From Apiotrichum sp. Y4204 (taxonomy: Eukaryota; Basidiomycota; Tremellomycetes; Trichosporonales; Trichosporonaceae), in assembly GCA_025531455.1 (NCBI GenBank), contig JAMYHL010000041.1, forward strand, positions 310,001 through 374,000: DNA of 64,000 bases. Direction: 5' to 3'. A program made the position numbers and the translations under genes. Below, one piece after another: positions 2,196 through 5,159 of this stretch. Every line of letters starts with the position of its first letter. The first letter of the stretch is position 1. The notes beneath the pieces were generated by a model. That model was given only the letters and a program-made list of their open reading frames with translations. It searched no databases and was not told the origin of the DNA.

Positions 2196-5159
2196 ATGCC
2201 TATTGCGATACGAAGCATGTCCTCACGATTGCAAGACACTTCGGACATTGTGAGTACTATGCCGGGCCACACTAGCTGTTGACCTCGTTATCGCAAGCTA
2301 GTGCTCGTCGCCGAACGTCGATTCGCTTAACCTCCACTCCGCGTATGTAGCCCGCTGACCCCAGCTCGGCGAGTACATGCTCAAGGGCTGGACCCTCACC
2401 GACCTGCACTGCGATGGATGCCGCGCGACTCCACTGATGCGTGAACCCTCCGGCGCAGCTGCACGGGTGGGCCGCGCGCCGATTCAGTTTTGTGCCCTCT
2501 GCGACGGACGGCCAGAGGGCCGCATGCCCGCGCCTTCCTCGGCATCAACGTCGACGACTTCCCTGTACACGACACCTCCCCCGGAACCGGAGACTACCTC
2601 TGCCACCACAACTCCGCAGGCAGCCACCTCCACGCCTCGACCCACCGCTACAGCGCGCGGCGATCCCGACGCTGCGGCTGACGCGATCGGCGGCCTGCTT
2701 CTTCGCGGCTACTCGCTGCTTCAGGACACCTGTCCCGAGCCGACGTGCCGCGGCGTACCGCTCGTCGGGTATCCCCGCAAGAAGGATGGGTCGCGTGACA
2801 CACGGCGCGAGTGTGTGAGCTGTGGCCGGCGCTGGGTCGATGAGAAGGATCTCAAGAACACCGGAATGAAGATTCGGGAGGAAGCCGCGGCTGCCCCCCC
2901 TACTCCTGTTCCCTCGGCCTCGGCTTCCTTCACATCGGTTCCAGCTTCCGCCTCCCAGTCCACACCAAGCGGAGAAGAGCCCGAAAGCCCGCGCACCAAG
3001 GCCCGCAGAGAGCTGTATGCGTATGGCAACGAGATCAATGCCGAAATTGAGCGGAAGCGTGCGGCGACGGAGACCAAGGAGCCGGTGAAGGAGGAGCCTG
3101 TGAAGGACGAGGGGAAGGGCAAGGCCCTTGCTGATCAACCACGGGAAACATCTGCCGGCTATTCAGTGGCGGCTGCCGAGCCGTCAAGCTCGACTAAGCC
3201 AGAAGCGTCTCCAGCTTCCACAGTCCCTGCGACTCCCGCGATTGTAGACCGGAACCCATCTAGCCGCCCATCTCGTGCCGTTTTTGTTGCTGAAGAGCAT
3301 CGGCCCTCGACTCCCGATGGAAAGCTTCGTGTTGTCCTCATCTCGACTGGCTCTGTTGCGTCGGTCAAGATTCCAAACATCGTCTCTGCCCTTCGCGCAG
3401 ATGGCAATGTGGAGGTGCAAGTAGTCTCCACTGATGCGTCGCTGCACTTTTTCGACCGCGAGGCGATCGAAAACGAGTACCCTGGAGTCAATGTCTGGAC
3501 CGACCGCGACGAGTGGAGCGACTGGAAGAAGATCGGTGATCCAATCCTGCACATCGAGCTCCGTCGCTGGGCGGATCTGGTGGTCATCGCGCCCGTGTCG
3601 GCGGACATGTTGGCCAAGATTGCTGGCGGACTGTGCGATAACTTGCCGCTGTCGCTGCTCCGTGCACTCAGCTCCGACACTCCCGTCATTCTGTGCCCAG
3701 CCATGAACACGTTCATGTACAGCCACCCGCTCACAGCACGCCATCTCGCATTCGTTCGCCAGGTGCTCAAATACTACATCCTTGGGCCCCAGGGCGCCGG
3801 CAAACTGGCGTGCGGTGATGTTGGCGCGGGTAAGATGACCGAATGGACGGACATTGTTCAGGCCATTCTTGGATACGCCGCCGTTTTCCGCAACAGGCCG
3901 GACGGCGATGCTTCCATGCTCAGTGCGCTGCTCTCCGGTTCGGTTCCCAGCCTACCCAGTATGGACCAGGTGCAGGTCGACATCCCGCCGCTTCCGACTC
4001 CTTCCATCTCCTCAATTCCCACTCAGGTCGCGCCCCGTCAGGTGCCTACGATCAACATTCAGGCTCCCACAGAACGGGAGGTGATCTACGTTAAACACGC
4101 TCCTCAGCGTCGCAAGCCGCGTCCCACGTTCACCGGCGTTTTGGCAAGTATTCCAGGCGGCGTTCTGTCCGTCCTTCTCTTTCCCTTCCTCATTCTGTTG
4201 CACGTCCTGTTCACCATCTCATCGATTGTTCTCCGTGTCGCCCAGTCGCGGCCCGAGCCTCTCCCTATCATAGCAAAGCCTGCCCCCTCACACCTCGGCC
4301 TCATTCTTGTTCCTGGCAAGGGGCCGCGCAAGGTTGTTGCTGAGCGGTATATCGAAAGCGTGCGTCGCGCCGTCGTCTGGGCGGGCGAGTGGGGTGTGGA
4401 GACGATCAGCGTTTGGGACGGACATGGCCTTGGTGTCCAGTACCACGGCGCGGTGACATCAAGCCTTCTCGACCTTCCGCCGTCGCCACCTTCGTCGACA
4501 CCACCTTCCCCGCCGCTCTCCACCGCTGATGAGCCTGCGGATGACGACGAAAACGGAACCCTTGGTGATGAGACGATAACCAAATCCGTTTATGTCAACA
4601 CCCGTGAGTTGTCCAATGGAAGGTGCTCTAACTCTCAGCCTCCGGCTCTCGTCGCGTCGAGGTTCACTTCCTCGCTCCCTCGGCCTCTGATGCCCTTGCG
4701 CGTGTGACACAGCAGTATATCCGGGATGGCGTCGCGCCAGGCAGCATTAATGAGCGTGATCTCGGTGTTGCGGTGTTTGCTAGCATTGGAGTTCCCTCCG
4801 ACCCCGATCTCCTGATCATCCATCACCTCTCGCCTCCTGGTTTCTGGCGCGGTCTCCTCCCCCGTCCGGCTCCCGAGCTCTGGGGATACCCTGCCTGGGC
4901 GCTGCGCATCACAGAGATCTAGTGAGTCACGGCTGATCACCTAGACTCGGACAACCGCTAACCTAACAGCACGCATCCCCCTCCCCTTCCCTTTTACATC
5001 CCCTTCATCGGCCGCCTCTTGCACAACTCGCCACTTCCGATTCTGCGCAAGCTCGGCGCTTCGTTCCCGGACGAGATCGATGTCGGCGTTCTCGACACCG
5101 ACGCCTGGGACGGAGCGCAGGCTGCGTGGGAGAAGGTCGAACAGAGGCGTGGCAAGTAG
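2196..5159 (+). CDS. p27 zinc ribbon / PPC decarboxylase / NUS1 fusion
   Basis: Four exons (2196-2249, 2365-4603, 4639-4921, 4970-5159) encode 921 residues. Residues about 20-70 and 140-190 are two Cys-rich ribbons of the p27/SSSCA1 type (CDGC...CALC, then CPEPTC...CVSCGRRW). Residues about 337-523 are a flavoprotein of the phosphopantothenoylcysteine decarboxylase/Hal3 family: HIELRRWADL holds the catalytic His, PAMNTFM is the PxMNxxMW-type substrate clamp, and LACGDVGAGKM holds the catalytic Cys, so it should be active in CoA synthesis. After a Pro-rich linker come a hydrophobic segment (about 616-645) and a NUS1/NgBR-type cis-prenyltransferase subunit ending ALRITEIY...EQRRGK, which keeps the C-terminal RxG motif. 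All three lie in one frame of exon 2 with no stop or intron between them. The 35-nt intron after exon 2 and the 48-nt intron after exon 3 are phase-consistent. Start: ATG 2217 is an in-frame alternative. An internal NUS1-only transcript starting near ATG 3961 cannot be excluded. Confidence 0.85.

Follow-up and report, generated by a model that had tools for sequence, protein, structure and literature searches.

A gene of Apiotrichum sp. Y4204 that probably joins p27-type zinc ribbons, a PPC decarboxylase and a NUS1 subunit in one polypeptide

Fusions of phosphopantothenoylcysteine decarboxylase (PPC decarboxylase, PPCDC), an enzyme of coenzyme A (CoA) synthesis, are already known as such from fission yeast and Ustilago (PMC6695811). 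SpHal3 of S. pombe is described there as a PPCDC core followed by an unrelated enzyme in one chain, with a functional PPCDC part. We report a gene of Apiotrichum sp. Y4204 (Trichosporonaceae) in which a PPCDC is likewise followed by an unrelated protein, here NUS1, the membrane subunit of dehydrodolichyl diphosphate synthase, with which protein glycosylation begins, and is preceded by a p27/ZNRD2 module. The gene lies in a stretch of 64,000 nucleotides (contig JAMYHL010000041.1, positions 310,001 to 374,000, forward strand), which we call the window and to which the coordinates of the gene refer. As read from its sequence, we consider it likely that this is a real fusion gene whose product would be a single three-part polypeptide.

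The described fusions differ from this gene in their partners. In S. pombe the partner is thymidylate synthase rather than NUS1, a precedent that the original prediction for this locus had named correctly, and the account of SpHal3 in PMC6695811 mentions no p27 part or membrane segment in the passages that describe it. Ustilago maydis UmHal3 is, like the protein studied here, a long basidiomycete PPCDC (1430 aa) with another domain ahead; it is a single, essential PPCDC. That domain is a VPS9-like region, the PPCDC occupies the last 240 residues, and the passages that describe the protein mention no NUS1 (PMC6695811). A Hal3 review gives values of 9 to 480 residues for extensions in a few Trichosporonaceae, in a passage that does not specify the end concerned, that leaves proteins with other identified domains out of its counts and that does not name NUS1 (PMC9604783); the fusion may account for these extensions. 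We found no description of a fusion of PPCDC with NUS1 or another cis-prenyltransferase in the literature searched, which consisted mostly of open papers, with subscription papers and bioRxiv largely outside it.

The joined gene and its three units

The coding sequence runs on the plus strand, as do all its features, from an ATG at 2196 to a TAG stop ending at 5159, limits identical to those of the original prediction. It encodes 921 residues in four exons, and all its introns are GT-AG. Exon 1 (2196..2249, residues 1-18) has a further in-frame ATG at 2217 and is matched in a second copy of the gene on another contig of the genome, C161. Intron 1 (2250..2364; GTGAGT...CCCCAG) separates it from exon 2 (2365..4603), which holds the p27 ribbons, the PPCDC, a linker, a hydrophobic segment and NUS1 residues 1 to 123. 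Intron 2 (4604..4638) falls at a residue directly past which the gene models of eight relatives diverge (P0002, P0007, P0029, P0038, P0039, P0041, P0045 and P0046), as though each met an intron at this position. Exon 3 (4639..4921), intron 3 (4922..4969) and exon 4 (4970..5159, including the stop) are placed by the gene model and the C161 copy.

No stop codon interrupts the frame. Around exon 2 it is free of stops from 2359 to 4707, or 782 codons, compared with a mean of 215 and a maximum of 479 for the longest stop-free stretch in 500 random sequences generated to the same first-order composition. All three units had been predicted to lie in a single 2.2 kb exon. That is true of both zinc ribbons, of the PPCDC and of the hydrophobic segment, but of only 123 of the 280 NUS1 residues; the other 157, including the terminal RRG, are encoded by exons 3 and 4. 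The central claim, that p27, PPCDC and NUS1 are joined in one coding sequence, is confirmed by the gene model, by Pfam and by a NUS1 profile.

The PPCDC domain (3280..3891, residues 324-527) matches Pfam Flavoprotein (PF02441) with 105.2 bits against a cut-off of 22.7, and matches the Arabidopsis Hal3 structure 1e20 with E=3.7e-47. Its closest solved structure is Cryptococcus neoformans PPCDC (6eoa, E=2.9e-80), which we take to be Hal3b and whose PDB row reads phosphopantothenoylcysteine decarboxylase. Alignment and motif checks place the catalytic His414 in DPILHIEL (3550..3552), the PAMN clamp with Asn466 at 3697..3708 and the catalytic Cys501 in LACGD (3811..3813), so that the His, PxMN clamp and Cys expected from the first reading of the sequence are all there. 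The three motifs occur in 14 of 14 sequences examined, and the GSVA motif (G347, S348, V349, A350) is invariant over 11 aligned rows. The catalytic role of the His is given in a figure legend of PMC9604783. Judged by these residues, the fused domain is catalytically intact and predicted to be active. A tblastn search of plasmids with the domain gave no lead: it returned 70 records, all below 60% identity, and those listed were bacterial, some annotated coaBC.

The NUS1 pseudo cis-prenyltransferase domain (4234..5159) extends over exons 2, 3 and 4 and was identified by profile and by fold. A profile that included Tremellales proteins matched yeast Nus1 at 1.3e-8; one built from fused proteins alone reached NUS1 chains at E 0.12-0.39, and significance required adding the Tremellales proteins. 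For the relative P0019, Foldseek found a NUS1-type fold (6jcn at 4.6e-5). Pfam Prenyltransf (PF01255) did not match the NUS1 part, and there was no Pfam match to this part in six of six sequences. Across 14 aligned sequences, ten of them free-standing Tremellales NUS1 proteins, Pfam gave one unrelated match only (E=0.68). Because PF01255 misses the free-standing Tremellales proteins as well, the model seems blind to this group. NCBIfam matches to P0001 and P0004, both fusions, were confined to the PPCDC domain, and the free-standing NUS1 P0035 drew no match. The gene ends in QRRGK and a stop, with the terminal R-x-G motif (RRG) at 5145..5153; the same terminus closes ten of 14 sequences, the other four being models that end before the last exon, and the C-terminal fragment P0020 ends QRKGA. 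This RRGK end and the hydrophobic segment at residues 610-641 are the two NUS1 features that the original prediction had seen, and both stand.

The p27 part matches Pfam Auto_anti-p27 (PF06677) twice, with 63.4 bits against a cut-off of 24.1. The first zinc ribbon (2365..2508, residues 19-66) has its cysteines at 34, 37, 61 and 64, and the second (2656..2868, residues 116-186) at 141, 146, 168 and 171. These paired cysteines are present in 11 of 14 sequences, and the three exceptions are models that lack that end. Between the ribbons and the PPCDC lies a spacer of low conservation in the alignment (2869..3279, residues 187-323), which is probably disordered and has the highest dN/dS (omega) of the gene, 0.25.

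Relatives, the second copy and separate genes

The joined architecture was sought in relatives and is present in Vanrija, Cutaneotrichosporon and further relatives. A search with the full-length protein, which scored only the 7985 candidates sharing most words, returned 18 proteins, and in ten of these (P0001-P0010) PPCDC is joined to NUS1. Seven contain all three parts to the final RRGK (P0001, P0003-P0006, P0008 and P0009); P0002 and P0007 have the p27 part and stop at the position of intron 2, and P0010 is without p27. The remainder comprise a p27-PPCDC fragment (P0011) and seven PPCDC proteins without NUS1 (P0012-P0018). A NUS1 search gave 29 proteins, namely seven joined fragments (P0019, P0029, P0038, P0039, P0041, P0045 and P0046), 21 free-standing proteins and P0020, a C-terminal fragment only. 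The named carriers of the join are all Trichosporonaceae: Vanrija albida, V. humicola, Cutaneotrichosporon spelunceum, C. cavernicola and C. oleaginosum. Among the matches listed, which for PPCDC were the best 120 of 968, Cryptococcus and Kwoniella have a free-standing NUS1 and a free-standing PPCDC. In Cryptococcus sp. DSM 104549, P0052 and P0066 (IAT38_002836 and IAT38_002835) occupy neighbouring loci and look like a PPCDC tandem pair.

The copy on C161 is 92.4% identical to the window gene over 6.9 kb. Its four exons have identical lengths, its introns lie at the same places, beginning GTGAGT and ending AG, and the two coding sequences align over 921 codons with zero gaps. Could a mis-assembly or a missed stop have joined two neighbouring genes? 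We give this next to no credence, since the same join, with equal exon lengths, is present in the C161 copy and again in proteins from the assemblies of other species. The overall dN/dS between the copies is 0.07 (105 synonymous and 23 nonsynonymous changes). Counts of synonymous and nonsynonymous changes were 4 and 0 in the linker (528-612), 10 and 0 in the hydrophobic segment with the N-terminal part of NUS1 (613-729), 20 and 2 in the PPCDC, 23 and 4 in late NUS1, and 16 and 12 in the disordered spacer. The linker and hydrophobic-segment counts indicate that the junction evolves as coding sequence.

The assembly totals 48.9 Mb. Each gene family examined occurs in it twice, a pattern that makes the genome look like an old hybrid of two subgenomes. 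The hybrids already known from the order, reported at 40.3 to 42.35 Mb (PMC8550739), are smaller. Exon-by-exon searches of the genome that scored the best candidates found no other NUS1: beyond the two fused genes nothing fell below E 0.1, the next match being 0.33 with the protein's own NUS1 and 0.23 with C. neoformans NUS1. No other p27 turned up in the genome either, all four p27 stretches lying within the two fused genes. Flavoprotein matches fall at six places: both fused genes, and both copies of each of two Hal3-like genes. Those Hal3-like genes were considered as ordinary complete PPCDC genes and rejected, because neither has the full catalytic set. A C. neoformans PPCDC query added two weak matches (C150, E=0.059; C42, E=0.081), and the genome yielded no further complete PPCDC. 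The original interpretation is supported to this extent: the joined PPCDC-NUS1 gene is genuine and conserved in the family, and the separate, complete PPCDC or NUS1 genes that would have spoken against it were looked for in the genome without success.

The junction and the likely product

The linker between the two enzyme parts (3892..4137, residues 528-609) is rich in proline (14 of 82 residues) and poorly conserved in the alignment, and between the genome copies it is gap-free. It leads into a hydrophobic segment of 32 residues (4138..4233, residues 610-641), with seven Lys/Arg against two Asp/Glu in the 40 residues on each side. The same hydrophobic motif opens the free-standing NUS1 proteins of Tremellales, where the stretch starts within residues 1 to 20. 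A hydrophobic stretch precedes NUS1 in every protein examined, 18 fused and 19 free-standing, with P0027 and P0043 left out as free-standing models that begin inside or past it. Its length in fused proteins ranges from 19 to 61 residues. Of the 18 fused rows, all have more Lys/Arg than Asp/Glu over the 40 residues before the stretch, and 12 have such an excess over the 40 after it. In the fused proteins P0003, P0004, P0010 and P0019, of Cutaneotrichosporon type, the region is 48 to 61 residues long and has room for two crossings.

What would such a protein do? The PPCDC domain would form a trimer, possibly with degraded Hal3-like proteins as partner subunits, and make 4'-phosphopantetheine. 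The NUS1 end would pair with a Rer2-type subunit, whose active site the RxG tail would enter. The hydrophobic segment would hold the whole protein on the face of the endoplasmic reticulum (ER). A single crossing with a cytosolic NUS1 would put PPCDC in the ER lumen, off its pathway; with both flanking enzymes cytosolic, the segment would have to be a hairpin or a re-entrant helix. This membrane placement, and the tethering that follows from it, we infer from the features of the segment. In its simplest function the fusion would anchor an otherwise soluble enzyme of CoA synthesis at the ER surface, in fixed stoichiometry.

A candidate catalytic partner for the NUS1 end is encoded in the same genome. 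PF01255 matches fall in two genes, on contigs C36 and C105, which we read as one per subgenome. Both have the MDGN motif; its catalytic Asp region is absent from the fused NUS1, where an alignment by eye sets HLGLILVPGKGPRKVV against HVGFVMDGNRRYAR of the catalytic subunit. As far as the last matched exon of the catalytic gene shows, its open frame closes with GWQQKAWLKAWK and contains no terminal RxG. The fused protein is therefore the sole visible source of an RxG tail. If that tail must stay free, a fusion could be added only N-terminal of NUS1, which is how the gene is built. In human cis-prenyltransferase, the RxG of NgBR is reported to contribute to the active site of DHDDS (PMC7573591).

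Several observations weigh against a single three-part product anchored in this way. Residue 509, the Met of GKMTEW, does not vary among 11 aligned rows and could act as an internal start; its constancy is presumably owed to PPCDC. Two models, P0010 of C. oleaginosum and P0029 of V. humicola, start downstream of the p27 part; they may be model errors or reflect a genuine second start. Synonymous changes are depleted near the junction, which could hint at a regulatory element, but the depletion is weak and not significant (lowest 85-codon window beginning at codon 521, p=0.094 in 2000 redistributions). In the AlphaFold model of P0019 the hydrophobic region is traversed by a single unbroken helix of 54 residues, with no hairpin, and the last 85 residues of the model, including RxG, are at low confidence; a model of P0010 made from 8 sequences reached a pLDDT of 49, too poor for use. 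Finally, the assembly searched for separate copies is possibly incomplete.

Some of these points bear on another explanation, that one gene gives two or more products. An internal start (at the GKMTEW Met, Met536 or Met551), an alternative transcript or proteolysis in the linker would free NUS1 and PPCDC from each other. The downstream-starting models and the synonymous depletion fit this idea, as do the prolines and poor conservation of the linker, features that cut sites often have. However, the linker has no Met at one conserved place, and in four of 14 sequences (P0005, P0006, P0008 and P0009) the stretch from the GKMTEW Met to midway through the hydrophobic segment has no further Met, so that a start in the linker could not yield a NUS1 with its whole anchor. 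The linker moreover evolves as coding sequence, and the 2A-like motif NPGP occurs in none of the 14 sequences. RNA-seq hints were used in annotating strains HIS019 and HIS016 (PMC10568926), and their strain names suggest that the deposited C. cavernicola and C. spelunceum models are these; the hinted annotation of both species retained one model. We therefore disfavor processing into two products, which we think unlikely.

Taking the single polypeptide as the better explanation, we considered whether the join also couples its two pathways. This idea extends the single-polypeptide reading rather than excluding it: an ER scaffold would link CoA synthesis to the mevalonate-dolichol branch, trimeric PPCDC and a dimer-of-heterodimer cis-prenyltransferase would form larger clusters, and p27 would perhaps police unassembled subunits. 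Consistent with it, the joined form is kept across two genera and further relatives, in yeast a CoA-synthesizing complex is reported to have Cab3 as its scaffold (PMC7865483), and the human cis-prenyltransferase is described as a heterotetramer (PMC7573591). Human ZNRD2, the reference member of the p27 family, is reported to act as an adaptor through which orphan CCT subunits reach the ligase HERC2, but such quality-control pathways are described as mostly absent from yeast (PMC10501995), and we do not transfer this function to the fungal p27 part. A fusion can also persist without any coupling. CoA and dolichol synthesis might conceivably be linked in their regulation; a full physical and regulatory coupling appears to us rather unlikely.

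The widest picture we offer only tentatively. Trichosporonaceae would run CoA synthesis from the ER surface, with their only complete PPCDC permanently attached to their only NUS1, clustered PPCDC and cis-prenyltransferase would co-dose CoA and dolichol, the degraded Hal3-like proteins would be regulatory and p27 would serve as an assembly check. If this were true, the join would show that the NUS1 membrane segment keeps both ends cytosolic. Two housekeeping steps of different pathways seem to share one polypeptide in a yeast family, and since no complete separate copy of PPCDC or NUS1 was found in this genome, both pathways appear to rely on it. The fusion permits a direct test of membrane-organized CoA synthesis and is a natural probe of NUS1 topology.

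Hal3-like paralogues, neighbors and known systems

The two Hal3-like genes, whose exons we picked by hand, encode 378 aa (para1; C128 at ~256.0-257.4 kb and the first 0.95 kb of C81, where the contig end cuts it) and 368 aa (para2; C145 at ~79.1-80.4 kb and C126 at ~204.5-205.8 kb). Para1 keeps the His (LHQEL) and the Asn (PAMN), and has Leu at the Cys site and GGEW instead of GSVA. Para2 has Tyr for His (LYREL), Asp for Asn (PAMD) and DGLV instead of GSVA; a Cys aligns with the catalytic Cys, but in PECDRE instead of LACGDV. Omega between the subgenomes is 0.04 over 249 codons for para1 and 0.11 over 368 for para2. This purifying selection indicates that both are probably working proteins without a full catalytic set. 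We regard them as candidate pseudo-enzymes that may serve the fused PPCDC as partner subunits or may regulate phosphatases.

To which PPCDCs are they related? In a tree of 47 chosen rows, from which P0011 and many close Tremellales and Agaricomycetes rows were left out, para1 and para2 fall in one group (98/98) with 17 free-standing PPCDCs, from Tremellales and Cryptotrichosporon, and 13 fused rows stand apart (96/80). Constraining the fused rows and the paralogues together was mildly rejected (p=0.037). Neither the fused rows with Cryptotrichosporon argae P0051 (p=0.215) nor the paralogues with P0051 (p=0.338) were rejected, and as tests of tree alternatives these are weak to moderate. The catalytic role seems to have passed to the fused gene as the older one decayed. 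The PPCDC part of the fusion has no intron and each paralogue has five; a retrocopy origin of that part would be only a guess.

Two neighbors of the gene also had Pfam matches. A frame on the minus strand at 5830-6510 matches GDT1 (PF01169, 34.8 bits), a cation/proton antiporter family linked to Golgi glycosylation, and its position next to a NUS1 gene may be chance. Upstream, a plus-strand frame at 344-1225 matches rRNA_processing (PF08524, 43.5 bits).

Each part of the fused protein has a free-standing counterpart. Human ZNRD2 (SSSCA1, p27) is a free-standing protein; it has in common with the fused protein the Auto_anti-p27 module, present twice here, whereas the p27 matches of this genome lie only inside fused genes. 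The NUS1 proteins of Cryptococcus and Kwoniella, mostly 334-375 aa, have the same hydrophobic segment, the same domain and a similar end (QRLGK, QRLGR or QRQGR in ten aligned proteins), but they start at or near the hydrophobic segment with nothing ahead of it. In yeast, NUS1 is an essential gene. Neither human NgBR/NUS1 nor yeast Nus1 is fused, and the yeast protein is described as lacking a canonical RxG (PMC7573591). C. neoformans PPCDC is a free-standing protein of 325 aa that, by its description in PMC6695811 and by alignment, has an extra insertion. The fused domain lacks this insertion, and para1 and para2 have a comparable one. Many free-standing Tremellales PPCDCs also have a C-terminal tail with a WW motif at its end, and para2 ends in WW.

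Hal3-type inhibitors of Ppz1 offer the last comparison. The BBxxxV[TS]F motif given for them in PMC9604783 has no match in the 921 residues of the fused protein, nor is there an acidic tail after the PPCDC core, the linker (528-609) having eight Lys/Arg and six Asp/Glu. In yeast, the Cab3/Hal3/Vhs3 heterotrimer brings together complete or partial and degraded Hal3-type proteins of one genome (PMC6695811), and the Apiotrichum genome likewise holds both kinds. The difference is that here one gene, itself fused to NUS1, holds all the catalytic residues and lacks the BBxxxV[TS]F motif. Together, the fused gene and its paralogues would give a second example of a genome that keeps complete and degraded Hal3 proteins alongside each other, and one that lies outside Saccharomycotina.

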